From NCBI GenBank assembly GCA_025463765.1, contig JAODBC010000027.1:62001-126000 (forward strand): DNA of 64,000 bases, given 5' to 3'. Positions 1,551 to 16,598 of the stretch are shown here, in pieces. Source of the stretch: Subtercola sp. (lineage in GTDB: Bacteria; Actinomycetota; Actinomycetes; Actinomycetales; Microbacteriaceae). Under the pieces are notes generated by a model. It searched no databases, was not told where the DNA came from, and was given only the letters and a program-made list of their open reading frames with translations. A program made the position numbers and the translations under genes. Every line of letters begins with the position of its first letter. Within the stretch, counting starts at the first letter, position 1.

Positions 1551-2747
1551 TCACTGCCCAGGAGCGAGCGTCTCTTTGCCGTCTTCCCACTGGATGACAA
1601 CACCGGGCGTGTCTGCACTGCGGTCCTTGAACGTGATCGGGTCACCCTGGGCACCGGCGAAGCCACCTTTGCTGGCAACTTGCGCCATGCCGGAGACGAT
1701 GTCTGCACGTGAGACTTTGCCCGAAGCGATAACGGCGGCCCGGATCAGGCCGAACGCGTCATAGGTCTCGGCGTTGAAAGTGGTGGGCTGCTTTCCGGTC
1801 GCCGCTTCGTAGGCCTTGGTGAAGTCGTTTCCCGAGGCGTAGGGCAGCTGGTCGGAGCCGACGAACGACGAGTAGTAGACGATGCCGTTGGACTGGTCAG
1901 GTGAGAGCGCCGCCAGGGCGTTTGCGCCGAGGGACGTGCCGCCGCCGATACCGCCCGTGAATCCGGCCCGCCGGAGTTGGGTGATGAGGGCGATATTCTG
2001 GGCACCGATGGCCTGGGTCTGAATGTAGTCGGGGTGGCCGGCGAGCAGGCGCGAGACCGCTGTCGTGAGGTCGGTCTCGGTCGATGAGCTCGAGACCGAG
2101 TCGGTGATCGAGATTCCGACGTCTCCGAACGCCTTGGGCATGACCTCTGTGGCTAGGGTCACAGAGGGTGCGTTGTCTGTCACGTAGAAGACTGCAGCCG
2201 TCTTTGCCTTGAGTTGCTTCGAGACGTACTCCGCGAGCTTGGGGTAGAAGTTGCCCTGCGGCGGCGTGATGCGCCAGATAGCGTCTCCAGTCTCTGTGAT
2301 GCCGTCGGCGGCGGCTTGCACATTGATCATCGGTATGCCCGCATCTTGGGCGAGCGGTGCGATAGCGAGCGCCTCTTCAGAGAGAACGCCGAAGATGACG
2401 GCGTCGGTATTGTCGAGAATGGCATCGTTCATCAGCGACGACGCGGTCGCGGCACTTGAGGCGGTGTCTTTCACCGTGAGAGTGATCTGGTTGCCGTTGA
2501 TTCCGCCCTTGGCGTTGAGTTCGTCGACCGTATACTTCGAGGCTTCTTCAATAGCCGTACCGAAGAATGCCGCCTTGCCGGTGATGTCTGCGAGCACGGT
2601 GATTTTGATGCCGGCGCCGGCGCTGGAGCCGGGCGCGGCCGGGTCCGCGCTGCACCCGGAGACGATCAGGGCGGTCGCTACACCTAGGCCGAGGATTCCC
2701 AGAGCCCGTCTGCGCGCTGGAGCCTTTGTTGAACTTCTTTGTTTCAA
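1551..2747 (-). CDS. LIV-type ABC transporter substrate-binding lipoprotein
   Basis: Extracytoplasmic ligand-binding protein (Peripla_BP_6 / LivK type) of the left-edge importer. It has a basic N-terminus, a hydrophobic core and the lipobox LIVSGC, so it is secreted and lipid-anchored. The mature part has the two-lobe family pattern (ITVLADITGKAAFFG, VFGVLSEEALAIAPLA). I chose the TTG at 2747, giving 398 residues, because AGGAG lies 7 nt upstream. An ATG at 2798 would add 17 residues without a ribosome site. The gene diverges from the hydrolase at 3009, and the intergenic region holds repeated GTCGAC boxes. The ligand is not readable from sequence. Confidence 0.9.
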   Translation of the reverse strand: MKQRSSTKAPARRRALGILGLGVATALIVSGCSADPAAPGSSAGAGIKITVLADITGKAAFFGTAIEEASKYTVDELNAKGGINGNQITLTVKDTASSAATASSLMNDAILDNTDAVIFGVLSEEALAIAPLAQDAGIPMINVQAAADGITETGDAIWRITPPQGNFYPKLAEYVSKQLKAKTAAVFYVTDNAPSVTLATEVMPKAFGDVGISITDSVSSSSTETDLTTAVSRLLAGHPDYIQTQAIGAQNIALITQLRRAGFTGGIGGGTSLGANALAALSPDQSNGIVYYSSFVGSDQLPYASGNDFTKAYEAATGKQPTTFNAETYDAFGLIRAAVIASGKVSRADIVSGMAQVASKGGFAGAQGDPITFKDRSADTPGVVIQWEDGKETLAPGQ

Positions 2748-2871: not shown

Positions 2872-2974
2872 GTCGACCGTCGTCGACCGAAATATGCTCA
2901 CAGTCGCAGCAATAAAACCTTGTACATCGTCGACTGGACCGATTAGATGTAGACCGTAGTCGACCGTAGTCGAC
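2872..2974. promoter_or_regulatory. GTCGAC tandem boxes, site A
   Basis: The divergent promoter region between the transporter operon and the hydrolase holds GTCGAC at 2872 and 2882, a lone copy at 2929, then GTAGAC at 2949 and GTCGAC at 2959 and 2969. Within each group the spacing is exactly 10 bp, one helical turn, so the palindromes lie on one face of the DNA. The same arrangement recurs at 9483-9508 and 15751-15776. It is a likely operator for a pathway regulator. The identity of that regulator is inference: the GntR at 4936 or the PucR-like protein at 9563 are candidates. Confidence 0.7.
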
Positions 2975-3008
2975 GTCGTGGCCGATGAACTCAATGAGGA
3001 GAACACTG

Positions 3009-3875
3009 ATGACCGAAATCACCCACCACCAGCGCATGGTGAACGGATTCCGCATGCACTATGTCACCGCCGGGTCGGGTTACCCGCTCGTGCTCCTGCA
3101 CGGCTGGCCGCAGAGCTGGTACGAGTGGCGTCACATCATTCCCGCCCTTGCCGAAAAATACACTGTCATCGTTCCGGACCTGCGCGGGCTCGGCGATTCA
3201 GAAAAACCACAGACGGGCTTCGACAAGCGAACCATGGCCTCCGACGTAGCCGAGCTGGTCACTCAACTCGGCTACGACAAGATCGGCGTGGTCGGCCACG
3301 ACTGGGGCGGATCGGTTGCGTTCTACCTTGCATACGACAACCGCGACCTGGTCGAGAGACTCTTCATCCTGGACATGATTCCGGGCCTCATTCGCGAGGG
3401 CGACAGCTTCGCGCTCCCGACGACGCTATTCATCAACCATATTTTCTTCCACGGTGGCAACCCAGACAACGCGACCGCCCTGGTCAGTCAGAACATCGAT
3501 CAGTACATCCGCCGATTTCTGACCTCGCTAGACTTCAACTACAGCCCGGCCGTCTTCTCCCAGGAGGACATCGCAGAGTACGTACGCGTCAACTCCATCC
3601 CGGGTTCGATCCGCTCCGGGTTCCAGTGGTACGCAACGGGACTCCGAGAAGACACGGTGAACTACAAGAACGCAACTGACAAGCTCACCATCCCCGTACT
3701 CGCCTGGGGCGGTTCGCACTTCCTCGGCGACATCACCCCCGTGTGGGCAGAGGTGGCGCAGAACGTTACGGGGGGTGCCGTCGAAAACTGCGGGCACTTC
3801 GTGCCCGAAGAGAAGCCGGAGTTCGTCATCGACCAGGCCCTCGATTTCTTCGAGCCGCTCCTTTCGAATGACTGA
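3009..3875 (+). CDS. alpha/beta hydrolase, epoxide hydrolase / haloalkane dehalogenase-like
   Basis: Cytosolic alpha/beta-hydrolase of 288 residues. HGWP at 31-34 supplies the oxyanion hole. The nucleophile elbow GHDWGG (96-101) has Asp98 rather than Ser, as in epoxide hydrolases and dehalogenases, and His263 (CGHF) completes the triad. The ATG at 3009 is chosen because AGGAG at 2997-3001 lies 7 nt upstream; the ATG at 2985 has no such site. It is the first gene of a plus-strand pair and overlaps the amidohydrolase by 8 nt. It may open an epoxide or act on a strained ring intermediate. The substrate is unknown. Confidence 0.88.
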   Translation: MTEITHHQRMVNGFRMHYVTAGSGYPLVLLHGWPQSWYEWRHIIPALAEKYTVIVPDLRGLGDSEKPQTGFDKRTMASDVAELVTQLGYDKIGVVGHDWGGSVAFYLAYDNRDLVERLFILDMIPGLIREGDSFALPTTLFINHIFFHGGNPDNATALVSQNIDQYIRRFLTSLDFNYSPAVFSQEDIAEYVRVNSIPGSIRSGFQWYATGLREDTVNYKNATDKLTIPVLAWGGSHFLGDITPVWAEVAQNVTGGAVENCGHFVPEEKPEFVIDQALDFFEPLLSND

Positions 3876-4821
3876 CGCTAAACCCTCTGCCGGATACTCG
3901 GGCCCGGTCATAGACACCTTCCTGCATACCCCATGGCTGGGCCGCGACGATCCGGCAGATCCTCGCGGTGACTCGGTCGACTGGCAGGGAGACACCCGTC
4001 TTCAGCGTGTGATGCGCACCTTCAGCCACACCACAACCGACGGCAGTCCCGCTCCGATGTTGGATGTCGGTCAGATTCTGGCCGAGATGGATGCGAGCGG
4101 GGTCACTCGCGCGCTTCTCCCGGCTAAGGTCTACTATCCTTCCTCCGACCGCGGTGTGCGCGCCGTGCACCGACAACTTGCCGAGCTGGCAAGCGCTTCG
4201 GGCGGGCGCCTGAAGACGGTGGCGACGATCGCTCCCCCGCAGCTGGGGTCCGGCACGTACTGGGACTTCATGCAGGGTGTGCGCACCGTGAAGCATGCCA
4301 AGGCGGAGTATGACGTTGTGGGTGTGCACATCACACCGTCACCTTGGGGGATGGGGCCGGACCACAAATGGTTCTACCCTGTCTATGCGGCCTGTGCGGA
4401 ACTCGATCTGACACTCTTCGTGCATGTCGGGATGCCGGGTCCGCTTTGGCCTATGTCGCTCCAGAACCCCGAGCTCCTAGACGAAGTGGCACTCGCCTTT
4501 CCAGACCTGCGCATCGTGGCTCATCACATCGGGGACCCGTGGACCGACATTTCTGTGCGACTTGCAGCGCGGCATCCAAATTTTTACATCTGCACGTCAG
4601 CATGGTCGCCGAAACGATACCCGCAGGAACTTCTTGAGTTCATGGCAAGTAGTTGGCACAGCACCCCCGGTGCCTCAAAGGTCATTTTCGCCTCCGACTA
4701 CCCTCTGATGGATATGACACGAACGGTGCGGGACGCCCGTATGCTGCCACTCACGGCTCAGCAACTCGGCCAGATCATGCACGATACGGCCGAGCGCCTG
4801 TTCTGGGGCGAGGGGAAATAG
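3868..4821 (+). CDS. amidohydrolase family 2 (ACMSD-like) hydrolase or decarboxylase
   Basis: TIM-barrel metal-dependent hydrolase/decarboxylase of 317 residues, related to the ACMSD/amidohydrolase-2 family. Visible elements are VHIT, FVHVG, VAHHIGDPW and the late metal/acid residue in FASDYP. The usual N-terminal HxH is reduced to DTFLH, so the metal site may be altered. Translation starts at the ATG at 3868, inside the last codons of the hydrolase gene, which implies coupling. Family members hydrolyse lactones or amides or decarboxylate aromatic acids, and I cannot choose between these. It ends 114 bp before the GntR gene. Confidence 0.82.
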   Translation: MTDAKPSAGYSGPVIDTFLHTPWLGRDDPADPRGDSVDWQGDTRLQRVMRTFSHTTTDGSPAPMLDVGQILAEMDASGVTRALLPAKVYYPSSDRGVRAVHRQLAELASASGGRLKTVATIAPPQLGSGTYWDFMQGVRTVKHAKAEYDVVGVHITPSPWGMGPDHKWFYPVYAACAELDLTLFVHVGMPGPLWPMSLQNPELLDEVALAFPDLRIVAHHIGDPWTDISVRLAARHPNFYICTSAWSPKRYPQELLEFMASSWHSTPGASKVIFASDYPLMDMTRTVRDARMLPLTAQQLGQIMHDTAERLFWGEGK

Positions 4822-4935
4822 GGCGTGTCTCCCAATTGCGCGTCGAGCGAGCGAGGGTACGGTGGCGTAGAAGGACGTTCAGGTCTGGCTCATCGCCTGC
4901 AGAAGAGTCCGTAACAGAATGGAACATCGACGGCA

Positions 4936-5646
4936 GTGAAAACGACGACATCCGCACCAGAACCACGCAGGTCAGATAACAACTCCGCCGAGGGGACACT
5001 CTATGACAGACTCCGCGCACAGATAATCGGGGGAATAATCACCCCAGGTACCCAGCTGGTCGAGGGAGTTCTGGCGACGGAGTACGGCGTGAGCCGCAGC
5101 CCGGTCCGAGAGGCTCTGAGCAAACTCACCTACGACGGCCTGCTCGAGCGTCACGGTCGGGCGATGCGCGTACGGGTGCTGAAGGCCGAAGATGTGCTGG
5201 AGCTCTATGAAGTGCGCATCGCCCTTGAGCGGGCAGCAGCGCGGGCCGCGGCGGAGCGGCGCAGCGAACTCGACTTGGGTCGCATGACCATGCTCTTGCA
5301 AGAGATGCTCAATCTGCCCGAGGGCGAATCGGAGCGGCGGCCGAAGCTTGCTCACGCTTTCCATTTCGAGATTTGGCGCGCAAGCCACAACGCCACCCTC
5401 GAAGCGACGCTCGAGGCCGTGCACCTGCAGGTTCTCGGCCTCTCATCGACGACCCTGCACCATGAAGAGCGCTGGAAGGTATTCGTCGAGGAGAGCAGCG
5501 AGATTCTCGACGCCGTGAGACTGCGCGACAGTGTGCGCGCGGGCGACAGTGCCGAGAAACAGATGATCAGCGCCCGTGATTTCCGCGTGCAGCTGTACAG
5601 TATGTCTCCCGATTCACTGCCCGACAGGCACCCACTGGGCATGTAA
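4936..5646 (+). CDS. GntR family regulator, FadR/FCD subfamily
   Basis: Transcription factor of 236 residues. The N-terminal winged helix has the GntR signature (LYDRLRAQIIGGIITPGTQL, then SRSPVREALSKL). A C-terminal FCD ligand domain follows, with ELYEVRIALERAAA and a His in FHFEIWRASHN of the kind that binds metal in this subfamily. The start is GTG at 4936. FCD regulators usually sense small organic acids and bind short palindromes with a GT..AC core, which the nearby GTCGAC boxes would fit. That link is inference. It follows the hydrolase and amidohydrolase genes on the same strand. Confidence 0.9.
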   Translation: MKTTTSAPEPRRSDNNSAEGTLYDRLRAQIIGGIITPGTQLVEGVLATEYGVSRSPVREALSKLTYDGLLERHGRAMRVRVLKAEDVLELYEVRIALERAAARAAAERRSELDLGRMTMLLQEMLNLPEGESERRPKLAHAFHFEIWRASHNATLEATLEAVHLQVLGLSSTTLHHEERWKVFVEESSEILDAVRLRDSVRAGDSAEKQMISARDFRVQLYSMSPDSLPDRHPLGM

Positions 5647-5691
5647 CCGCTCGGTTCGCTCGCACGCAGAAAGGCCCCGTGGGAAGAACAG

Positions 5692-6645
5692 CTAGCGCGC
5701 GCTCGGCCCCGTCACGTGATCGACCTCGGCTGCGATGACATCAAGCGCGTCACGCGCGGCGTCGAGGTGATTGTGCAGACGCAGAAAACCGTGGGTCATC
5801 CCGGGCCAAACGCTCAGGGTGGTCGGCACTCCGGCTGCTTCGAGGCGCTCCGCATAGCGGCGACCGTCGTCTGCCAGCACGTCATACTCGGCCACGACGA
5901 CCAGCGAGCGAGGCAGCTCGGCGAGATCGTCTGAAATCAGTGGTACGACATCGGGGTCTGACCGTCCGTCGATACCGACATAGTGCCCGAAGAACCATTC
6001 CATGTCACCGCGAGTCAGCGGGTAGCCCGTTTTGAACTCACGGTAGCTTGGCGAATCAAGATCGCCACTGGTCACCGGGTACACGAGAATTTGGAGCGCC
6101 GCATCGATCTGGGAACCGAGCCGCCTGAGCGCGACAGTCACCAGATTGGCGCCGGCACTGTCGCCCGCCACAATGAGTGGCAGTCGCTCGGCGATCAAGG
6201 CCGAGGCGTTCAGCCCGGCGGGGCTGTCGCTGTCGTCGCCCGCGGCCCAGAGCAGAACGTCCTCGATGTCTTCGAGCCCCGCCGGGAACGGGTTCTCTGG
6301 GGCAAGGCGGTAATCGGGCAGTAACACTGCGCACCCGGTTCGCGCCCCCAGTTCACGACCGAGAGTATCGAAGTCATCGATGCCGCCGACGACCCATCCC
6401 CCGCCGTGCGCGTACACCAGAATCCCGCGCACAACACCCGACGGAATAAGCAGGCGGGCATTGATGCTGGTGTCAGACCGGGATGGGATGTGGATGTCGT
6501 GCACCTGCGCCATCTCCGGCCCCGGGCCGAGAGCCGCCCGGCCTCGCGCAACCATCGCACGAGCATCGTCGACGTCGCCGCCGCTGAGGCCCGGTTTGCC
6601 GGCCTGGTTCGCGATCATCGTTTTAAGAAACGGATGAAGCGGCAT
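5692..6645 (-). CDS. HSL-type alpha/beta hydrolase (esterase / lactonase)
   Basis: Hormone-sensitive-lipase family esterase of 317 residues. It shows the HGGG oxyanion motif (80-83), the nucleophile elbow GDSAG with Ser163, Asp255 (EYDVLADDG) and His285 (MTHGF), a complete triad. This is the family of caprolactone hydrolase ChnC. It is the last gene of the operon CaiB, aldehyde dehydrogenase, esterase, starting 9 bp after the dehydrogenase. With a Baeyer-Villiger monooxygenase nearby, opening the lactone or ester it produces is the natural role. That role is inference. Confidence 0.9.
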   Translation of the reverse strand: MPLHPFLKTMIANQAGKPGLSGGDVDDARAMVARGRAALGPGPEMAQVHDIHIPSRSDTSINARLLIPSGVVRGILVYAHGGGWVVGGIDDFDTLGRELGARTGCAVLLPDYRLAPENPFPAGLEDIEDVLLWAAGDDSDSPAGLNASALIAERLPLIVAGDSAGANLVTVALRRLGSQIDAALQILVYPVTSGDLDSPSYREFKTGYPLTRGDMEWFFGHYVGIDGRSDPDVVPLISDDLAELPRSLVVVAEYDVLADDGRRYAERLEAAGVPTTLSVWPGMTHGFLRLHNHLDAARDALDVIAAEVDHVTGPSAR

Positions 6646-6654
6646 GATGTTCTC

Positions 6655-8154
6655 CTACTCGGCGATGTCGATCCAGACAGTCTTCGTCTCGAGGTATTCC
6701 TCGACGTGCTCTGTTCCGCCCTCTTTGCCATAGCCGCTCATCTTGAAGCCGCCGAACGGAACAGCAGGATCGAGTGCATGGTAGGTGTTGATCCACACCG
6801 TACCCGCCTGGAGCGCGTTCGCGGTGCGGTGGGCCTTACCGACGTTCTCGGTGAACACACCGGCCGAAAGCCCGTAAGGTGTTGAGTTCGCACGGTGCAC
6901 AGCCTCGCCCAGCTCGTCGAAGGGCATGGCAGAGATGACGGGCCCGAAAATCTCCTCGCGCACCATCTTCATGTCGTCGTGTGCGTCGGCGAACACCGTC
7001 GGAGCCATGAAGAAGCCTGCGCCGAGGGAACCCTCCTGCAGCCGCTTGGCTCCCGCGACCGCCCGGGCACCTTGCGAGAGACCGCTATCGACGTACGACA
7101 GCACCTTTTCAAGCTGCCGCGCGCTTACCACCGGGCCGATCTCGGTGTCGGGATCTGTGCCGTCTCCGACGCGCAACTTCCGCGCAAAGTCCCCCAGCCG
7201 TTCGACGAACTCGTCATGGATGGAGCGCTCGACGAACAGTCGCGAACCGGCGATGCAGATTTGGCCTGAGTTGGCGAATGCTGCGAGGCCCACCCGGGGC
7301 ACGGCCTTATCGAGGTCGGCATCCGCGCAGACGATGATCGGTGATTTTCCGCCGAGTTCCAGCGACACTCGCTTGACGTTCTCGGCCGAGGCGCGAAGGA
7401 TGCTCTGGCCCGTCGCCGTCGACCCGGTGAAGGCGATCTTGTCGACATCGTGGTGGGCCGCAAGTGGAGCGCCGGCCTCCACTCCGTTGCCGGTCACGAC
7501 GTTGACCACGCCGGCAGGTACGCCCGCTTCTTCCATGATCCGCGCGATCATCAGCGGACTGAGGGGCGCCTCTTCAGACGGTTTCAAAATGATCGTGCAG
7601 CCGGTCGCGAGGGCCGGACCGATCTTCCAGACGGATGCAGCGATCGGCGCGTTCCACGGAATGATCGCGCCGACCACGCCGACTGGCTCTTTGCGCGTGA
7701 AGCTGTGGAACTCCCCCGGCAGCGAGTTCGAGATCGTTCGTCCGTCGAGCGTGGTCGCGAGTCCCGCGTAATACCGGAGCATCCCGGTCACTCGACCGCG
7801 GTCGGCCCGCGCGCGGGTCAGGGGCTTACCCATGTCGAGGGTGTCGCAGAGCGTGAGCTCGTCCCAGTGATCGTCGAACAGGTCGGCGATGGTGAGCAGC
7901 AGACGCTGTCGAGCCGCGGGTCGGAATCCGGCCCACTCACCACTGAACGCACGGCGTGCAGCGGTTACCGCAAGGTTCACGTCGGCGGCAGCGCTGCGAG
8001 GAACAGTTGCCAGAATCGCCCCCGTGGCGGGGTTGACCGTGGTCATCGACTCCCCCGAAATGGAATCCACCCACTGGCCGTCGATGTACATCTTCTGGTG
8101 CCGGCCGTCTAGCGTCAGCAGTCCGGTGGTTTGTGTCTCGAATGACGTTGTCAT
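6655..8154 (-). CDS. NAD(P)-dependent aldehyde dehydrogenase
   Basis: Full-length 499-residue aldehyde dehydrogenase that oxidises an aldehyde to its acid. Asn168 (PWNAP), Glu266 (ELGGK) and the catalytic Cys300 (SGQICIAG) are all present, as is the GSTATG cofactor loop. Its start overlaps the end of the CaiB gene by four bases and the esterase follows closely, so the three are co-expressed. In a ChnABCDE-like scheme it would be the ChnE step, oxoacid to diacid. The actual substrate is not known. Confidence 0.93.
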   Translation of the reverse strand: MTTSFETQTTGLLTLDGRHQKMYIDGQWVDSISGESMTTVNPATGAILATVPRSAAADVNLAVTAARRAFSGEWAGFRPAARQRLLLTIADLFDDHWDELTLCDTLDMGKPLTRARADRGRVTGMLRYYAGLATTLDGRTISNSLPGEFHSFTRKEPVGVVGAIIPWNAPIAASVWKIGPALATGCTIILKPSEEAPLSPLMIARIMEEAGVPAGVVNVVTGNGVEAGAPLAAHHDVDKIAFTGSTATGQSILRASAENVKRVSLELGGKSPIIVCADADLDKAVPRVGLAAFANSGQICIAGSRLFVERSIHDEFVERLGDFARKLRVGDGTDPDTEIGPVVSARQLEKVLSYVDSGLSQGARAVAGAKRLQEGSLGAGFFMAPTVFADAHDDMKMVREEIFGPVISAMPFDELGEAVHRANSTPYGLSAGVFTENVGKAHRTANALQAGTVWINTYHALDPAVPFGGFKMSGYGKEGGTEHVEEYLETKTVWIDIAE

Positions 8155-9362
8155 CTCACTCCTTCGCGTGCGACAGGTTCCGAGGCCCTCTGCAGAACGG
8201 CTTCGATCTGCTTCTCGTCATATCCCAGCTCTTCCAGTATGTGCTTGGAGTCGGCCCCGAGCGCAGGAGGCGACGCTTGGCGAAACGAGCGGGTGCCGTT
8301 ATAGGAAATCGGGTGATCGACTAGCCGGAACTCGGGAATGTCTTCATGCGGCCAGGGGCGGATCATCTTCAATGCCTCGACTTGGGGATCGACAACGACC
8401 TGGTCGATTGTTCGCACTCCGGAGCAGGGCAGACCGGTATCGGTGAGCATCCGTTCCCACTCCGCGGCGGTACGTGTGCGCAGAACCGCTCCCAGCGTGG
8501 CACTCAATTCATCCCGCAGAGCGACCCGCTGGGCATTCGTACGGTATCGCGGGTCGGCAGAAGTTTCGGGTAGCCCGAGCGCGGCACACAGTCTGACGAA
8601 GAGGCTGTCATTGAGCGCCGCGATGAAGATGAAGCCGTCTTTGGTGGGAAAACCCTCGTACGGTGCCATCTGGGCGTGCCGCGATCCCTGCGGGCTCGGG
8701 ATCACGCCTCCGGCGAAGTAGTTCGAGGCGAAGTACCCCATCCAGGCGACACCCGTCTCCATCAGACTGGTTTCGACCAGCTGGGCGGTACCGGTGGCGT
8801 CGCGCTGGCGCAGCGCTGCCAGAACACCGAGCGCGGCCCACATCCCGGTACCCTGGTCGATGATCGACGGCCCGACACGGCTTGGCAGGCCTCCCGGTTC
8901 CCCGTTGATGCTCATGACGCCAGAAGCCGCCTGCACGATGGTGTCGTAACCCGGGCGGTCTCGGTCGGGGCCGGTGCTGCCGAATCCGCTGATCGAACAG
9001 TAGACGATGTCCGGATTGATGGCCTTGATGTCTTCGAAGCCCAGGCCTCTTTTCGCCAAGCTGCCCGTGCGGTTCGATTCCACGAACACGTCGGCCTCGG
9101 CCGCCAGGTCGCGGATGGCTTGGGCACCGGGCTCCGTGTTGATATCGACGGCCAGGCTCTCTTTGTTGCGGTTCAGAGCCAGGAACAGGGCGCTGTGTTC
9201 ACCCCAGGTCGGCGGGGTCCACTGGCGGGTGTCGTCTCCGAACCCGGGTCGCTCCACCTTGATGATCCGCGCACCCAGATCTCCGAGCACCATGGTGCCA
9301 TAGGGACCAGCGAGATTCCGGGTGAGATCGAGCACAGTGACCCCGGACAATGGTGATGTCAT
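8151..9362 (-). CDS. CaiB/BaiF family (type III) CoA-transferase
   Basis: Family III CoA-transferase of 403 residues. It moves CoA from an acyl-CoA donor to a free acid through an aspartyl thioester. The catalytic aspartate aligns as Asp169 in SIIDQGTGM, and the N-terminal VTVLDLTRNLAGPYGTMVLGDLGA and FGSTGPDRDRPGYD segments are typical. It is the first gene of a three-gene operon with the aldehyde dehydrogenase and the esterase, and could activate the acid they release. Upstream lies GTCGAC site B, shared with the divergent PucR-like gene. Confidence 0.92.
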   Translation of the reverse strand: MTSPLSGVTVLDLTRNLAGPYGTMVLGDLGARIIKVERPGFGDDTRQWTPPTWGEHSALFLALNRNKESLAVDINTEPGAQAIRDLAAEADVFVESNRTGSLAKRGLGFEDIKAINPDIVYCSISGFGSTGPDRDRPGYDTIVQAASGVMSINGEPGGLPSRVGPSIIDQGTGMWAALGVLAALRQRDATGTAQLVETSLMETGVAWMGYFASNYFAGGVIPSPQGSRHAQMAPYEGFPTKDGFIFIAALNDSLFVRLCAALGLPETSADPRYRTNAQRVALRDELSATLGAVLRTRTAAEWERMLTDTGLPCSGVRTIDQVVVDPQVEALKMIRPWPHEDIPEFRLVDHPISYNGTRSFRQASPPALGADSKHILEELGYDEKQIEAVLQRASEPVAREGVR

Positions 9363-9482
9363 ATCAGCTCCCGAGCCGGTTGGTGCCCGTCACGGGCGGC
9401 GGGGGAGAACGACGGACAATGCCCGGTTCACCGACGTCGACAACGACGGATAGAAGTAGTGAGAAAAAGCATATCAGCTCTC

Positions 9483-9508
9483 GTCGACCGTAGTCGACAA
9501 TAGTCGAC
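9483..9508. promoter_or_regulatory. GTCGAC triplet, site B
   Basis: Three GTCGAC palindromes begin at 9483, 9493 and 9503, exactly 10 bp apart, between the divergent CaiB and PucR-like genes. On the minus strand a TATGCT hexamer resembling a -10 box follows within about 16 bp, so the boxes would overlap the -35 region of the CaiB operon. A further single GTCGAC sits at 9436. The arrangement matches sites A and C. Confidence 0.72.
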
Positions 9509-9562
9509 ACAAGCGATACCCTGGCAATGCGAAATGACGATCTTCGAGGGAGAGGAGTGGCG

Positions 9563-10639
9563 ATGACAACAACCCTCTCCGAGAGCGGCGTCCTTGATCT
9601 CTTCGACCGTCTGATTGAAGAAGGCGTAGAGATCAGGCCGCTGGTGGGACAGGTGGCCGCCTTCGTACAGGGGCGGCTCGGCGTGGTTCTTTCCGACGGC
9701 ACCGCCGTCTCGGGTGATGCGTTGGGGCACGTCAGCGACCAGGGCATGCCTCCGGATGCGCTCGTGCGCCAGAGTGGGCGACGCGACATCGTCTGGGTGG
9801 ACAGAGATTCCGGGCCGCTCGAGGAGAGCGACTTTCTGCTCCGGCGGCTCGCCGTTGCCGTTCAGGTGCTCGATCGACGTGAGGATCTTCACACGCGCGT
9901 CGCCTCTCCGGTCGAGCTCCTCTTGCAATCCCGAATCTCGCAACCGATGTTGGTCGAGACCCTGCGCCGGCTGAGGCTGCGAGCGACCGACCGGATCGCC
10001 GTCTACGTCGCGGAGGGATCGGACCGGGCTTGGGAGGAGTTTCGCCGAGAACACATTCCATTCGGTCTTGTCGCGGCGGCCGACTACGCGGGGCGTCACG
10101 TCGCCCTCCTGCGCTCCGGCTCTGAGATCGATGACGATTCGGTCACGCCCCCGGCCGGGCTCCGCGTCGCCCTCAGCACCGACAGACTTGCACGCGAAGG
10201 CAACCGGGCGTTCCGAGAGGCCGTCGCCGCCCTCCGTCTCGCTCGACCGCTCGCAATCCACGGGCGGCCGCGCGGACTCCTGGTGCGGTGCTCCGAGCTC
10301 GGGGCCCTCCACGCGCTGTCGGAACTGAGCCGGTCGGACATCGACGGCATCGCCGATGTCGCTGTCCTCGAAACGCTTGCTCGCCGACACGGCCCCATTG
10401 TTCTCGAAGCCCTAGAGGCCTACGCATCGACCCAGTCCCAGCGTGAGGCGGCTGCGCTCTTACACGTGCACCACAACTCGATTGCGCACTGGGTCAGACG
10501 CGCTGAGGATGCGCTGCACTGCCGGCTAACAGCCCCCTACCAGCGCACCCGGCTCCTGATTGCGCTGATGCTCCTCCGGATGCGCGATTCCGCACACCCA
10601 GGCCGGCCGGCCGGACCGACCGCGGACGTCCGGTTGTGA
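9563..10639 (+). CDS. PucR/CdaR-like transcriptional regulator
   Basis: Regulator of 358 residues with a variable N-terminal sensor part and a C-terminal PucR-type helix-turn-helix (STQSQREAAALLHVHHNSIA followed by HWVRRAEDAL). This class usually activates catabolic or purine-use operons. The ATG at 9563 is preferred because GAGGAG precedes it by 5 nt; an upstream ATG at 9527 lacks a site. It sits between the CaiB operon and the Baeyer-Villiger monooxygenase and shares GTCGAC site B with the former. That makes it a good candidate regulator of this module, alongside the GntR protein. Confidence 0.83.
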   Translation: MTTTLSESGVLDLFDRLIEEGVEIRPLVGQVAAFVQGRLGVVLSDGTAVSGDALGHVSDQGMPPDALVRQSGRRDIVWVDRDSGPLEESDFLLRRLAVAVQVLDRREDLHTRVASPVELLLQSRISQPMLVETLRRLRLRATDRIAVYVAEGSDRAWEEFRREHIPFGLVAAADYAGRHVALLRSGSEIDDDSVTPPAGLRVALSTDRLAREGNRAFREAVAALRLARPLAIHGRPRGLLVRCSELGALHALSELSRSDIDGIADVAVLETLARRHGPIVLEALEAYASTQSQREAAALLHVHHNSIAHWVRRAEDALHCRLTAPYQRTRLLIALMLLRMRDSAHPGRPAGPTADVRL

Positions 10640-10808
10640 ACGAACCATTCCGGACCCGAGGTCGCCTCCGGTCTCCAAATGGCCAAAACGTCGAGCTATC
10701 GTGCTCCAACTGGCGGGCACAGGCATGAGAGAGCTCTTGGATACTGGAGGCAGGACAGAGCCTCCCGAAACACACGAATCACCCCACCGCGACGAAGGAG
10801 TCACGACA

Positions 10809-12452
10809 ATGAAACAAGCCCCGCAGGTCGATGCGATTGTGATCGGCGCCGGATTCAGCGGGTTGTACCTCATCCGCAAGCTGCGCGACGAGCTCGGACT
10901 GAACGTGAAAGTGTTCGAACGAGGAACCGGTGTCGGCGGAACGTGGTTCTGGAACCGCTACCCTGGCGCACGCTGCGATGTCGAGTCGGTCTTCTACAGC
11001 TATTCATTTGACGAGCAGCTGCAGCAGGACTGGGTTTGGACGGAGCGTTACCCCGCGCAGGAAGAGATTCTGCGCTACATCAACCACGTTGCCGACCGCT
11101 TCGACCTGCGCCGCAGCATCGAGTTCGAGACGACCGTGGTCTCCTGCGAGTACGACGAAGACAAAAACCTCTGGACCGCCGAGACCGACACGGGCGATCG
11201 CACCTCGGCACCGTACCTGATCTCAGCGGTCGGCTGTCTCTCGGTCCCGCTCACCCCGGAGTTTCCCGGGCTGGAGTCGTTCGGCGGGCATGTGTACCAC
11301 ACCGGTGCGTGGCCGACCGAGGGCGCCGACGTGACCGGGCTGCGGGTCGGCGTGATCGGCACCGGTTCGTCCGGCATCCAGGTCATCCCTGAGCTCGCGC
11401 GCCAGGCCGCCGAGCTGACAGTGTTCCAGCGAACCGCCACTTTCACGGTGCCCGCCAGGAATCGGCCGCTGACCGACGACGAACGCACTCAGACGAAGAG
11501 CATCTACGCCGACATCCGCGAAGCCGCCCGCTACTCCGGAACCGGGCATCTGCTCGACCAGCCGATCGGATCAGGCCAGGAAGTCGACCGCACGATGGCG
11601 AAGATCGAGCTCGAGCGGCGCTGGTGGCGGGGCGGCATCACGGTGCCGGCGACGTTCAACGACACAACCGTGAACCTCGACTCCAATGAGTTCATCTCCG
11701 AGTTTGTGCGTGAGAAGATCCGTTCGATAGTGACCGATCCCGAGGTGGCCCGCCTCCTCGAACCGCACGATTATGCGATCGGAACCAAGCGGATCGTGCT
11801 TGATGCTGGCTACTACGACACCTATAACCGCGAGAACGTGACGCTCGTATCGACCCGGGCAAATCCCATCGAGCACTTCACCCCTACGGGTATCGTCGTG
11901 GGCGGCGTCGAACATCCTCTTGACGTGATTGTGCTCGCTACTGGCTACGACGCGATGACGGGCGCATTGAACCGCATCCGCATTCAGGGCCGCGACGGCG
12001 TGTTACTGCGCGAGAAATGGGCAGCGGGTCCGACGACTTACCTCGGCGTCGCCACGCACAGTTTCCCCAATTTCTTCACGGTGACCGGACCCGGCAGCCC
12101 CTCCGTGCTGTCGAATATGATCGCCTCGATCGAACAACACGTTGAGTGGATCGCGGCGTACGTCGATCATCTCCGCAGCAACGGCATCCGCTGCACAGAA
12201 CCGTCGGCGAACGCCGAGCAGAACTGGGTCGAACACGTCAACACACTCGCGAACGCCACCCTCTTACCGAAGGCAGCGTCGTGGTACATGGGCGCGAACG
12301 TTCCTGGTAAACCCCGGGTTTTCATGCCTTACCTCGGCGGCGTGGGAACCTATCGACGCATCTGCGACGAGGTGGCCGCGAACAACTACATGGGCTTCGT
12401 GCATGATTCGGCCGAGACGACCGTGCTGCCCGCGTTGATCAGAACGACGTGA
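10809..12452 (+). CDS. type I Baeyer-Villiger monooxygenase (cyclohexanone monooxygenase-like)
   Basis: FAD- and NADPH-dependent monooxygenase of 547 residues, close to the length of cyclohexanone monooxygenase. It inserts one oxygen next to a ketone, giving an ester or lactone. It has the FAD Rossmann motif GAGFSG (13-18) and the NADPH motif GTGSSG (184-189). The diagnostic fingerprint FGGHVYHTGAWP spans 158-169, with His164 and Trp168. The ATG at 10809 follows AAGGAG by 8 nt. It meets the zinc alcohol dehydrogenase tail to tail with a 14 bp overlap. It is the key enzyme of this module and suggests a cyclic or branched ketone intermediate. Confidence 0.95.
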   Translation: MKQAPQVDAIVIGAGFSGLYLIRKLRDELGLNVKVFERGTGVGGTWFWNRYPGARCDVESVFYSYSFDEQLQQDWVWTERYPAQEEILRYINHVADRFDLRRSIEFETTVVSCEYDEDKNLWTAETDTGDRTSAPYLISAVGCLSVPLTPEFPGLESFGGHVYHTGAWPTEGADVTGLRVGVIGTGSSGIQVIPELARQAAELTVFQRTATFTVPARNRPLTDDERTQTKSIYADIREAARYSGTGHLLDQPIGSGQEVDRTMAKIELERRWWRGGITVPATFNDTTVNLDSNEFISEFVREKIRSIVTDPEVARLLEPHDYAIGTKRIVLDAGYYDTYNRENVTLVSTRANPIEHFTPTGIVVGGVEHPLDVIVLATGYDAMTGALNRIRIQGRDGVLLREKWAAGPTTYLGVATHSFPNFFTVTGPGSPSVLSNMIASIEQHVEWIAAYVDHLRSNGIRCTEPSANAEQNWVEHVNTLANATLLPKAASWYMGANVPGKPRVFMPYLGGVGTYRRICDEVAANNYMGFVHDSAETTVLPALIRTT

Positions 12453-13530
12453 TCACCGAGCGGATGATGCCTCCGCGTTCCAGCTGAGCGTATGCCTCGT
12501 CGATCTCGCCTAGCGTTATCTCCTGGGACACGAGGTCGTCGAGGTTAAGGCGCCCCTGCAGATACAGTTCCGCGTACATCGGAATGTCTTTCTTGAGGTT
12601 GGTCGAACCCATGTGCACCCCGGTCACCGAGGAGTGGGCTCGAAGCATCTCGAGCGAGGAGCCCATCTGCACGCTTGCGCCGGGCTTAGCCAGACCGACG
12701 AAGTACGCTCCGCCGCCAGTTCCGACCATGTCGAGAGCCTGAGCCTGGGTCTGTTCGAGGCCGATGACCTCGAATACGTGCGTGGCCCCGCCGCCGGTGA
12801 GTGCGCGAACGACCTGCACAGCGTCGGTCTCGCGGGAGTTGATCGTCTCTGTCGCACCGAAGCGCTTCGCCACCTCGAGCTTGGTGTCGTCAATGTCGAT
12901 TGCGATGATCTGCAAGGCACCCGCGAGGCGTGCGCCACTAATCGTATTCAGGCCCACGCCCCCGGTGCCGATGACTACGACGGTGTCGCCAACCCGTACT
13001 GCGGCGCTGTTGATAGCGGCTCCGGCACCGGTGACGGTACCGCAGCCGAGAAGGCTCGCTTGAGCGAATGGAATCAACCGGTTCACGACGGCGAGTTGGT
13101 TCTCGTGCACCAGCACCGACTCCGCAAAACCGCCGATCCCATAAGCCTGGTTCAGCGCCTCGCCGTCCATGCTCAAACGCGGAGGTTGATTTGCTCGACG
13201 CAACGTCGCCTGCTTGTTCGGGCAGGCGTAGCTGCGACCCGAGGTACAGACCACGCACACTCCGCAAAACTGGATCAGACAGGCGACAACGTGATCTCCC
13301 GGCACCATCGTGGTCACTTCGGGACCGACAGCCTTCACAATCCCGGCCACCTCATGCCCGAAGACCGCGGGCATGGGTACGCCGAAGTCAGCTGAGACCA
13401 GGTGCATATCGCTGTGGCACAGGCCGGACGCCCGTACTTCCACAGCCACTTCGCGCCCGATCGGAGTGGCGATCGAGACGTCTCGAACGGTAAATCCTTT
13501 ACCAGTGCCCAGCGAAACCGAAGCCCTCAT
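12439..13530 (-). CDS. zinc-dependent medium-chain alcohol dehydrogenase
   Basis: MDR-superfamily dehydrogenase of 363 residues. It has the catalytic zinc Cys in GLCHSD and His in GHE, and a structural zinc set of four cysteines (FCGVCVVCTSGRSYAC). The NAD-binding motif is GTGGVGL. It interconverts an alcohol with an aldehyde or ketone. A 17 bp-stem hairpin lies between it and the upstream SDR, so it may have its own promoter. It overlaps the monooxygenase gene end to end. In a Chn-like route it would be ChnD, hydroxyacid to oxoacid. That assignment is inference. Confidence 0.92.
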   Translation of the reverse strand: MRASVSLGTGKGFTVRDVSIATPIGREVAVEVRASGLCHSDMHLVSADFGVPMPAVFGHEVAGIVKAVGPEVTTMVPGDHVVACLIQFCGVCVVCTSGRSYACPNKQATLRRANQPPRLSMDGEALNQAYGIGGFAESVLVHENQLAVVNRLIPFAQASLLGCGTVTGAGAAINSAAVRVGDTVVVIGTGGVGLNTISGARLAGALQIIAIDIDDTKLEVAKRFGATETINSRETDAVQVVRALTGGGATHVFEVIGLEQTQAQALDMVGTGGGAYFVGLAKPGASVQMGSSLEMLRAHSSVTGVHMGSTNLKKDIPMYAELYLQGRLNLDDLVSQEITLGEIDEAYAQLERGGIIRSVITSF

Positions 13531-13587
13531 TACACTTTCCAGCCTTCCTTATTACGGGGCATGCTCTGCGCTGCTCCGACAACCATG

Positions 13588-13626
13588 ACGAATGGGAAGG
13601 GCGACGCGATCGCCCTTCCCATTCGT
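13588..13626. terminator. 17-bp perfect hairpin, probable terminator
   Basis: A perfect inverted repeat has arms at 13588-13604 and 13610-13626 and a 5 nt CGCGA loop. It lies 10 bp beyond the SDR stop codon on the minus strand, upstream of the alcohol dehydrogenase. There is no T-run, as is common for actinobacterial hairpin terminators. It probably ends or attenuates the flavoprotein-SDR transcript. Confidence 0.7.
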
Positions 13627-13635
13627 ACCGAGCTG

Positions 13636-14481
13636 CTAGACCCGGGCACCGTCCAGGAACTCAGCCGATGCGCGAACCACATCGGGGCCGAAGGTGCCCT
13701 GCGTGATGGCGCTTGCGCCGCCATCGATGGGAATAACGGTACCTGTGACGTAGCGAGCCAGGTCGCTCGCCAAGAACACCGCTACATCGGCGATGTCCTC
13801 CGGCTCACCGACGCGGCCGAGCGGAATTTTCGGACCAAGTTCTTGAGACAGGTACGCCAGGAACTCTGTGGCGTCCTCGCGAGGCACACCGAACGCATTC
13901 GCCATGATCGGGGTCATGATCGTGCCAGGAGCGATGGCGTTCGAGCGGATGCCCAGCGGGGCGAACTCTGCCGCCGCTTGCCGTACGAGACCGATGACCG
14001 CGTGTTTGGCGGCCGTGTACGCCGCTCCCGCCCATGCGCCCTGCAGACCGGCGACGCTCGACGTCGAAATGATCACGCCGCCCCCGCCCTGCTTTTGGAA
14101 CTGCTGGCTTGCGTACTTGTGCCCGAGGGCGACGGAGCGCGTAAGAAGAGCGAGGGTGCGATCGAAGCCATCGGCATTCAACTCCGCCATCGCGGACGTG
14201 TCACCTTGGTTGCCTGCGTTATTGAACATGATGTCGAGCCGGCCGAATTTTTCGACCGCCACCGTAATGATGTTGGCGATCGCCGCCTCATCCGTCACAT
14301 CGGTGTGTACGAAGATCGCAGCATCCCCGAGCTCCTCGGCGATGCGAGCGCCCTGCTCGTCGGAGATGTCGCCGATCGCAACCCGGGCGCCTTCGGCCAC
14401 GAAGCGCTGTACGCTTGCCAGGCCGATGCCGCTCGCGCCACCGGTGATGACGGCGACGTTGCCGTTGAGTAGTCCGGTCAT
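13636..14481 (-). CDS. short-chain dehydrogenase/reductase (SDR)
   Basis: Classical SDR of 281 residues that oxidises an alcohol or reduces a carbonyl with NAD(P). The cofactor motif TGGASGIG is near residue 14, NNAG follows, and the catalytic Tyr and Lys are in AAYTAAKHA. A somewhat longer loop between the sheet and helix regions is ordinary. It starts 10 bp after the upstream flavoprotein gene with an AGGA site, so they form a unit. It could oxidise a cyclic alcohol to the ketone used by the Baeyer-Villiger monooxygenase (ChnA-like). Confidence 0.92.
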   Translation of the reverse strand: MTGLLNGNVAVITGGASGIGLASVQRFVAEGARVAIGDISDEQGARIAEELGDAAIFVHTDVTDEAAIANIITVAVEKFGRLDIMFNNAGNQGDTSAMAELNADGFDRTLALLTRSVALGHKYASQQFQKQGGGGVIISTSSVAGLQGAWAGAAYTAAKHAVIGLVRQAAAEFAPLGIRSNAIAPGTIMTPIMANAFGVPREDATEFLAYLSQELGPKIPLGRVGEPEDIADVAVFLASDLARYVTGTVIPIDGGASAITQGTFGPDVVRASAEFLDGARV

Positions 14482-14490
14482 CGGATCGTC

Positions 14491-15660
14491 CTAGACCGTG
14501 CGGTAGTGGTCGATGATGAACGGAGCGACCTCGACGACGTTATTGTGGTCGACGAGGGCATGTTGCTGGGCCACGTGGATGTCGAGCATCGCCCGGCCGA
14601 GCGTCGACCCCTGACGGACGCTGTTGGTGCCACCCCAGTAGTAGGCGAACTCCACGACCTCACGCACAACGTTATGAATGAGGTTGGCCGTCTGGCGGAG
14701 GCGCGAACGATCAAAGTCATCCATGCCCTCTCCCGATTCGATCTTGCTACGGGCGTTCTCGATGTTCTCGATCATCAGCGCTCGCGCCGCGGCAAGCTGG
14801 GCCTCTTTATACGCGAAGTCATGAAGGAAAATCTGCTGATCGATCACCGGCAGATGCGGTGGGCGCTGCTTGCCCTGGTCGGCGACCGCGACGATGTCTT
14901 CGAGGGCGCGTTTCGCGATGCCGCAGGCGACCGCAGAGTGGTACGTGACCGCAGTCCCGACGAAGTCCATTCGGCCGCCGGCACCTCCACGAAGAGGAAC
15001 GTACGCAGCGGGGCTGAAGACGTACTGCGAGGGAACGAACACATCGTTCACCTCGAAGTCGACACTGCCGCTGCCTTGCAGACCAATGACGTCCCAACCG
15101 CCTGTGACGGTCGCCTGCTCGCGCGGAACGATGGCTGTGACGACCTCGGTCATGTTGGTGCCGTCGACGAAGCCGCCCGCGGCAAAATACGATGCATGCA
15201 GCACGCCGCTTCCGAACCGGTACTTACCGGTGAGGCGATAGCCGCCCTCAACCGGAGTGGCGATACCGCCGGGTGCAGCGAAGCCGGCGGCAGTGGCACG
15301 CGACTCGCCGTCGACGTACATCTCGCGCACGGCGTCATCACCAAGGCCCACACTTGAATATCCGGCAAAGCCGGAGAGGGTCATGAACGACCAGCCGGTC
15401 GAGCCATCGTGGCGGGCGACTTCTTCGTAAACCTCGAAGCGCTTTTTCATGGGGATGTCTTCACCGCCGAGTTCGGCGGGGATGTCGATCCAGAAAAGCT
15501 CGGTCTCGCGAAAAGCCTCAATGACTTTTTCGCTGATTTGGCCGATCTCCTGAGTCGTGTCGGCCTCGGCGCGGATCAGGTCGCCAAGCGAACGGGCGCG
15601 GTCGAGGGGATCGCCGAGGCGCTCCTGAACCGAGACGGACGGGCTTTCCAGTGTTGACAT
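14491..15660 (-). CDS. acyl-CoA dehydrogenase-fold flavoprotein, possible class D monooxygenase
   Basis: Flavoprotein of 389 residues with the acyl-CoA dehydrogenase fold and a type-2 C-terminal domain. The segments GWSFMTLSGFAGY and WGGTNSVRQGSTLGRAMLDI look more like the HsaA/IacA/DszC hydroxylase-type group than beta-oxidation enzymes. If so, it uses reduced flavin and oxygen to hydroxylate a small substrate and needs a separate reductase. None is adjacent; the nearest is the fusion at 25726. An ordinary dehydrogenase remains possible. GGAG precedes the ATG. Upstream lies GTCGAC site C next to a TTGACA -35 box. Confidence 0.75.
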   Translation of the reverse strand: MSTLESPSVSVQERLGDPLDRARSLGDLIRAEADTTQEIGQISEKVIEAFRETELFWIDIPAELGGEDIPMKKRFEVYEEVARHDGSTGWSFMTLSGFAGYSSVGLGDDAVREMYVDGESRATAAGFAAPGGIATPVEGGYRLTGKYRFGSGVLHASYFAAGGFVDGTNMTEVVTAIVPREQATVTGGWDVIGLQGSGSVDFEVNDVFVPSQYVFSPAAYVPLRGGAGGRMDFVGTAVTYHSAVACGIAKRALEDIVAVADQGKQRPPHLPVIDQQIFLHDFAYKEAQLAAARALMIENIENARSKIESGEGMDDFDRSRLRQTANLIHNVVREVVEFAYYWGGTNSVRQGSTLGRAMLDIHVAQQHALVDHNNVVEVAPFIIDHYRTV

Positions 15661-15737
15661 TCATGGCTCCACTTCATCGGGGTGTCGCAGGCGCCATCGC
15701 TTGCGGTTTGAACCAACTTCTCATAGGCGCGAGTTGG

Positions 15738-15776
15738 TGTCAAGAAATTAGTCGACCTTGGTCGACTAAAGTCGAC
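15738..15776. promoter_or_regulatory. GTCGAC triplet, site C, beside a TTGACA -35 box
   Basis: GTCGAC occurs at 15751, 15761 and 15771, exactly 10 bp apart, between the divergent flavoprotein and SDR genes. On the minus strand a perfect -35 hexamer TTGACA (complement of 15738-15743) follows the triplet directly. The -10 position 17 bp further on (GAAGTT) is poor. That layout fits an activator bound just upstream of the -35 box. Activation is inference. Confidence 0.72.
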
Positions 15777-15812
15777 GATAGTCTTCTTGCTGGTGACCGA
15801 AAGGAGACGCAG

Positions 15813-16598
15813 GTGGAACGCTTGAACGGAAAGAGTGCTGTTATCACGGGCGGTGCCGCCGGCATCGGTCTCGCTATCGCCCAGTTGTTCGTCGCTGAGG
15901 GGGCGTGGGTGACGATCGTGGATCGCACGCAGCGCGATATCGATCGCGCCTTGGTCCAGTTGCGCGAAATCGGTGCCGATTCCCATGGCCGAACGGTGGG
16001 AGTGGTGGCAGATGTCTCCGTCGAGGAGGAAACCCACCACTACGTCGCCGCCGCCTTCAAGGCCTTTGGCCGTATCGATGTGCTCGTGAACAATGCAGGC
16101 ACGGTGGGAACAGTGGCCTCCATCATCGACACCGATCTCGCCCAGTTCCGCCGGGTGCTCGATGTCAATGTCGACGGGGTGCTGCTCGGCCTGAAGTACG
16201 TTCTGCCTGTGATGTTCGCCCAAAAAGCTGGGAGCATCATCAACATGGGCTCTGTGGCCTCCTTCGCAGGAACCGCAGGCCTCGCCGGTTATGTCACCTC
16301 GAAGCACGCTCTCGTCGGTTTGACGAAGACTGCCGCTCTGGAAGCAGCGCCGCACGGAGTGCGGGTGAATTCCGTGCATCCCACGGCGGTCGACACACAG
16401 ATGATGCGAAACATCGAAGCCGGTCTCTCGGATGATCCCGAGGCTCTGCGCGCTCGCATGGAGAGCCAGATTCCGCTCGGTCGCTACGCTAAGTCGCAGG
16501 ATGTCGCGCTTCTGACCTTGTTCCTCGCATCCGACGAGAGCACCCAGATCACCGGAGCGCAATACCGCATCGACGGAGGGCGCGGCGCCTCCTCCTGA
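15813..16598 (+). CDS. short-chain dehydrogenase/reductase (SDR)
   Basis: Classical SDR of 261 residues with TGGAAGIG (12-19), NNAG and the catalytic YVTSK. The GTG at 15813 is chosen because AAGGAG lies 6 nt upstream; the open frame extends to 15651 but without a site. The C-terminus ends in the usual GAQYRIDGG. It is the first plus-strand gene beyond GTCGAC site C and is probably co-regulated with the flavoprotein operon. It is a second candidate for alcohol-to-ketone oxidation. Confidence 0.92.
   Translation: MERLNGKSAVITGGAAGIGLAIAQLFVAEGAWVTIVDRTQRDIDRALVQLREIGADSHGRTVGVVADVSVEEETHHYVAAAFKAFGRIDVLVNNAGTVGTVASIIDTDLAQFRRVLDVNVDGVLLGLKYVLPVMFAQKAGSIINMGSVASFAGTAGLAGYVTSKHALVGLTKTAALEAAPHGVRVNSVHPTAVDTQMMRNIEAGLSDDPEALRARMESQIPLGRYAKSQDVALLTLFLASDESTQITGAQYRIDGGRGASS

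Follow-up and report, generated by a model that had tools for sequence, protein, structure and literature searches.

Tandem GTCGAC palindromes at one-turn spacing as candidate GntR/FCD operators in a Baeyer-Villiger catabolic cluster of actinobacteria

What are the closely spaced GTCGAC repeats in the promoters of a Baeyer-Villiger catabolic cluster, and which protein would bind them? The question arose in 64,000 nucleotides of DNA from Subtercola sp. (GenBank assembly GCA_025463765.1, contig JAODBC010000027.1, positions 62,001 to 126,000; hereafter the window), where a sequence-only reading had proposed that GTCGAC boxes at exact 10-bp spacing define a candidate regulon. We found arrays of these boxes at the same promoters in five related clusters, which supports that proposal. 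We suggest, with a probability of about 0.72, that the arrays are operators of an autoregulating local GntR/FCD repressor (encoded at 4936-5646), the dimers of which would be aligned on palindromes one helical turn apart.

On inspecting the sequence again, we found the boxes where the sequence-only reading had placed them, with exactly 10 bp between neighbouring boxes at sites A, B and C. At site A the boxes stood as described, but their arrangement had to be redrawn as two separate units 77 bp apart, one a pair and the other a triplet. The arrays of the window are:

2872-2887: array A1 (site A), a pair of GTCGAC boxes at 2872 and 2882, upstream of a transporter binding-protein gene
2949-2974: array A2 (site A), GTAGAC at 2949 followed by GTCGAC at 2959 and 2969, its last base 34 bp upstream of the alpha/beta hydrolase ATG
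9483-9508: array B, three GTCGAC boxes at 9483, 9493 and 9503, between a CoA-transferase gene and a PucR-like gene
15751-15786: array C, GTCGAC at 15751, 15761 and 15771, with a weak in-register fourth box, GTCTTC, at 15781

All arrays are intergenic, and the four-base spacers within them differ in sequence. The window contains six GTCGAC pairs spaced by 10 bp, and none of the other 4096 possible hexamers reaches three. The single hexamer is itself over-represented there (73 observed against 46.5 expected), and the signal is therefore the spacing rather than the hexamer alone. The claim that the window holds no other triplet was borne out with up to two mismatches allowed, apart from site C read in a shifted frame. 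Across the five clusters (92.5 kb in total, in segments that we chose by hand), 22 pairs were found at 10 bp; no other distance up to 40 had more than one pair, except for distance 20, whose six pairs are a consequence of the triplets. First-order Markov simulations, 100 per cluster, gave a mean of 0.00-0.04 pairs, a largest value of 1 and no triplet. We conclude that the occurrence of the arrays is far beyond chance.

The arrays are also specific within their own genome, a 4.3 Mb draft of 118 contigs that is 88% complete, so that genome-wide counts are lower bounds. GTCGAC-N4-GTCGAC occurred at ten places, six of them here between genes; the four elsewhere all fall inside open reading frames of at least 195 amino acids, which from the look of their translations we take to encode an ABC transporter, a HAD-type phosphatase, a DAHP-synthase-like protein and an unknown protein. 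The many random coding pairs that would have refuted the sequence-only reading were not seen, since the 4.3 Mb contained these four, and a reversed-pattern control had no matches in the same genome. When up to two mismatches were tolerated, the full triplet was found at five places, all on the contig of the window and within 19.6 kb (58203 to 77786): one each at sites A and B, two that overlap at site C, and a new one to the left of the window. This fifth operator (G000:C90:58203-58228; L185 1501-1526) has one mismatch; it is 3.8 kb away from the window, flanked by genes for an alpha/beta hydrolase and a luciferase-like monooxygenase, and ends 64 bp upstream of the monooxygenase gene. TAGCGT follows 18 bp past its last box, which places a box at the -35 position there too. 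The motif is thus specific enough for regulon members to be found from sequence alone, as the recovery of an operator beyond the window illustrates.

Similar arrays were then found in other genomes. An exact-triplet scan of an 84,980-species collection, which is no census, returned at least 117 stretches. Many of the 117 listed are simple repeats or lie within long frames; two among the listed matches, from Microbacterium sp. CH12i (L127) and a Klenkia metagenome-assembled genome (L089), encode the same cluster, with identities of 72-74% for the CoA-transferase, 75-80% for the aldehyde dehydrogenase and 52-80% for the Baeyer-Villiger oxygenase. With the amidohydrolase of the window as anchor, we also recovered two Rhodococcus opacus plasmid records (S8 and 3D), which share the gene order and the arrays and are counted as one cluster, and a further carrier, genome G531. 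Five clusters are therefore known in total (window, CH12i, Klenkia, R. opacus and G531), and the comparison with orthologous clusters that the sequence-only reading had recommended yielded four with arrays in the promoters of the same genes. The cluster is rare: the anchor matched only the own genome among 396 genomes of its order (E 1e-40) and among 394 of its class (E 1e-80), two samples that have genomes in common. In the order of Klenkia, five of 397 genomes matched at E 1e-40, the close matches (64-65%) being Klenkia and G531 only; the three distant relatives (38-41%; L169-L171) had neither a close cluster nor arrays.

The positions of the arrays recur among the clusters. CH12i has two in the gap between the CoA-transferase and PucR-like genes and one each before the hydrolase, transporter, AcoR-like and acyl-CoA-dehydrogenase-like genes. 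R. opacus carries them in the oxygenase/acyl-CoA-dehydrogenase gap and before the hydrolase gene, while both Klenkia and G531 have two in the transporter/oxygenase gap; the substrate-binding protein gene is preceded by an array in CH12i, G531 and Klenkia. Searched genome-wide with up to two mismatches, CH12i gave three triplet places, all within the cluster. G531 also gave three: the known operator, a site about 9 kb from it that ends 65 bp upstream of the ATG of a luciferase-like monooxygenase gene, and one unexplained site elsewhere. Klenkia gave five, of which two are known operators, and it has the luciferase-like and unexplained sites seen in G531 as well. In both genomes the luciferase-like array (L196 in G531, L199 in Klenkia) is weak with an exact central box, and the distance of 65 bp parallels the 64 bp at the fifth operator of the window's genome. 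On the Klenkia contig that carries gntR (C66 5507-5532, L194), a one-mismatch triplet stops 22 bp short of the ATG of a gene that we read as amidohydrolase-like. We take the luciferase-like and L194 triplets to be additional operators, though with less certainty than the others. Taken together, we conclude that the same cluster in other actinobacteria carries arrays at the same promoters.

Three side observations concern these related clusters. The array before the CH12i acyl-CoA-dehydrogenase-like gene is embedded in an inverted repeat that is perfect over 27 bp and has a 4-nt loop (L168 13172-13229); the pair at L168 13193, one of the 22 counted, is inside this repeat and may mean something else. 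GTATCC or GGATAC stands beside GTCGAC pairs in 10-bp register in CH12i, G531 and Klenkia (L167 9385-9420; L164 15438-15443; L172 1661-1666) and is perhaps a weak type of box. Lastly, the amidohydrolase of the R. opacus S8 plasmid (L156 19989-20940) matches in two pieces, of which the annotation covers the second half only.

The window encodes three regulators that might bind the arrays, all named in the sequence-only reading: a GntR-FCD, a PucR-like and an AcoR-like protein. These and the neighbouring genes are:

1551-2747, minus strand: ABC-transporter substrate-binding protein, putative target of array A1, likely TTG start at 2747
3009-3875, plus strand: alpha/beta hydrolase, putative target behind array A2; its CH12i and R. 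opacus orthologues are also preceded by arrays
3868-4821, plus strand: amidohydrolase-family gene between the hydrolase gene and gntR, its ATG at 3868 overlapping the end of the hydrolase gene
4936-5646, plus strand: GntR/FCD regulator, third gene downstream of array A2 and proposed to bind the arrays
8151-9362, minus strand: CoA-transferase (CaiB family), putative target of array B
9563-10639, plus strand: PucR-like regulator (Pfam HTH_30), alternative binder, read here as a target of array B
14491-15660, minus strand: acyl-CoA-dehydrogenase-like gene, putative target of array C
15813-16598, plus strand: short-chain dehydrogenase, putative target of array C, likely GTG start at 15813
16631-18406, minus strand: AcoR-like regulator, alternative binder; its CH12i relative is preceded by a box pair

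The GntR protein has an N-terminal GntR winged-helix domain (PF00392, 61.1 bits against a cut-off of 27) and a C-terminal FCD domain (PF07729, 67.5 bits against 24.3). Of the three regulators, it alone has a close relative (62-76% identity) in all five genomes or plasmids: 76% in CH12i, 64% in R. opacus, 63% in G531 and 62-63% in Klenkia. GntR accompanies the sites in four of the four further clusters, the Klenkia copy being on another contig, and all five proteins have the same GVSR-x-P-x-REAL residues in their DNA-binding part. gntR has an array upstream of it, on its own strand, in the window, CH12i, R. opacus and G531. The next closest GntR among the plasmid records, a Nonomuraea protein of 40% identity, had neither the cluster nor any array within 12 kb. 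The R. opacus stretch holds a second GntR-FCD gene, which the window GntR did not match at E 1e-8. The GT..AC core that the sequence-only reading had linked to GntR-FCD proteins also agrees with the literature. FadR-subfamily operators follow the consensus GTM-N0-1-KAC, and several groups have a 2-nt gap (PMC4494728). Both GTCGAC and GTAGAC fit this form and are putative sites of the window GntR.

The other two regulators fared less well. Relatives of the PucR-like protein were found in 12 of 99 genomes of near relatives at E 0.001, the own genome included, with a best other match of E 9.1e-11. The PucR-like and AcoR-like genes each adjoin one of the four further clusters, that of CH12i, and are missing beside the other three; neither regulator accompanies the arrays across the clusters. 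Both genes are probably targets of the arrays. On the basis of these sequence comparisons, the strongest candidate for the binder is the GntR-FCD protein.

We next considered where the arrays lie relative to promoters. A consensus promoter scanner reported one promoter-like site in the three intergenic regions. Using a looser pattern of our own (TCGACN, then TAnnnT 16-18 bp on), we found a box at the -35 position in 8 of 19 array-facing promoters: 4 of 4 for the transporter, 2 of 2 for the CoA-transferase, 2 of 2 for the PucR-like gene and 0 of 11 for the others. Next to A1, for example, the minus strand reads TCGACA, 17 bp, and TACATT at 2853-2848, and the boxes of array B occupy -35 positions toward both flanking genes. 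The array before the hydrolase gene ends 34 bp from the start codon in the window, 42 bp in R. opacus and 39 bp in CH12i. The -35 overlap and these short distances suit an exclusion of RNA polymerase.

Several observations weigh against a GntR repressor that binds the arrays. The -35 pattern was absent from 11 of the 19 array-facing promoters, and the control (three-base windows from 22 to 60) averaged 1.0 yet equalled the maximum of 8 at 25-27 bp, where it apparently sees the same -10 elements from neighbouring boxes. The Klenkia gntR and the main cluster are on separate contigs. GntR proteins up to 60-70% identical may recognise different motifs (PMC4494728). Dimers spaced 10 bp apart would be crowded, and a single dimer may cover two adjacent boxes instead of one. 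Two points speak more directly for GntR binding as an activator. An array over a -35 position can also suit an activator that touches RNA polymerase there, and the TTGACA that had been reported beside site C is indeed present just past the array, on the minus strand (15743 to 15738), where it would suit activation. Activation at site C, as the sequence-only reading had expected, is possible for that single promoter and is not favoured overall: the 34, 42 and 39 bp at the hydrolase genes leave scant space for a downstream promoter, and GntR-family proteins are mostly repressors. Repression by GntR is more likely, and we consider a GntR activator unlikely.

Each of the other possible binders appears less probable still. 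The PucR-like protein adjoins array B and could bind the arrays and activate the cluster, and its CH12i relative adjoins two arrays; that relative is only 38% identical, however, and the incomplete Klenkia genome gave no match at E 0.001. G531 has only a distant match (E 5.5e-25) about 370 kb off, in a 4 kb locus without an array, and the 41 kb R. opacus stretch had none at E 1e-8, the R. opacus chromosome being outside this search. PucR-type sites are reported to be 17-24 bp inverted repeats or non-palindromic (PMC7652997), and binding by the PucR-like protein is improbable. Binding by the AcoR-like protein is less probable again: a relative (38%) stands beside the CH12i cluster and another of 38% is encoded elsewhere in Klenkia, but the G531 match is weak and partial (E 6.4e-20), and the same R. 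opacus stretch, again with the chromosome outside the search, had no match at E 1e-8. As our comparison covered the three regulators of the window, a regulator encoded outside the cluster could also be the binder. We rate this about as improbable as binding by the PucR-like protein, since the triplets of the own genome are confined to one 19.6 kb stretch and the cluster retains its arrays on the R. opacus plasmid. Finally, the over-representation of GTCGAC and the many simple repeats and coding matches in the public scan would be in keeping with chance or simple tandem repeats as the origin of the arrays. We regard this explanation as refuted by the differing spacers, the intergenic position and the recurrence at the same promoters in five clusters.

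Returning to a GntR/FCD repressor, we propose the following mechanism. Each GTCGAC or GTAGAC would serve as a GT-N2-AC palindrome that receives a single GntR dimer. With two or three such palindromes at intervals of one helical turn, dimers would be set side by side on the same face of the DNA, and binding would then probably be cooperative. The most likely action is repression by exclusion of RNA polymerase, and gntR is probably autoregulated because an array precedes it on the same strand. Repression might be relieved by a pathway intermediate at the FCD domain, at a guess a carboxylic acid or the corresponding CoA ester; carboxylic acids are among the small ligands that FadR-subfamily proteins bind (PMC4494728). 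More tentatively, and at somewhat below even odds, the arrays may represent a new GntR-FCD operator grammar, in which whole GT-CG-AC palindromes, one per helical turn, stack dimers into a short filament over the core promoter. Graded occupancy by number and quality of boxes could then set a promoter-by-promoter order of induction in a plasmid-mobile catabolic regulon that also controls two further regulators.

How do these arrays compare with known operators? No title or abstract opening that we searched describes this system, and no regulatory study of the cluster came up, supplements and most subscription journals being outside the search, and a word search of the papers on R. opacus S8 and 3D found neither "Baeyer" nor "GntR" in either text. 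FadR-subfamily sites share the GT-N2-AC palindrome, and many groups have weaker boxes 7-12 nt from the centre; these extra boxes are weaker half-sites (PMC4494728), whereas the arrays here consist of two or three complete palindromes in a strict 10-bp register. FarR, of the HutC subfamily, likewise has 10-letter unit repeats (TGTATTAWTT) bound by a GntR-family protein, but the subfamily is another and the unit is not palindromic (PMC4494728). The closest parallel is Escherichia coli NanR, of which three dimers bind a (GGTATA)3 operator cooperatively and need a defined spacing (PMC8012715). It too is a GntR-family protein with a catabolic regulon and an operator of three close repeats in fixed register, although some arrays here have only two good boxes. 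NanR differs in its direct GGTATA repeats with dimers about half a turn apart, compared with GTCGAC palindromes a full turn apart here, and in a 32-residue N-terminal extension that cooperativity requires, where the window GntR has about 20 poorly conserved residues before its domain (PMC8012715). Multi-dimer GntR operators are already known from NanR, and arrays of complete palindromes at one-turn spacing would be a new version of that design. They yield, for a Baeyer-Villiger catabolic cluster, a proposed pairing of regulator and operator that can be tested directly and, unlike the half-turn arrangement of NanR, a clean case for the packing of GntR dimers at one-turn spacing.

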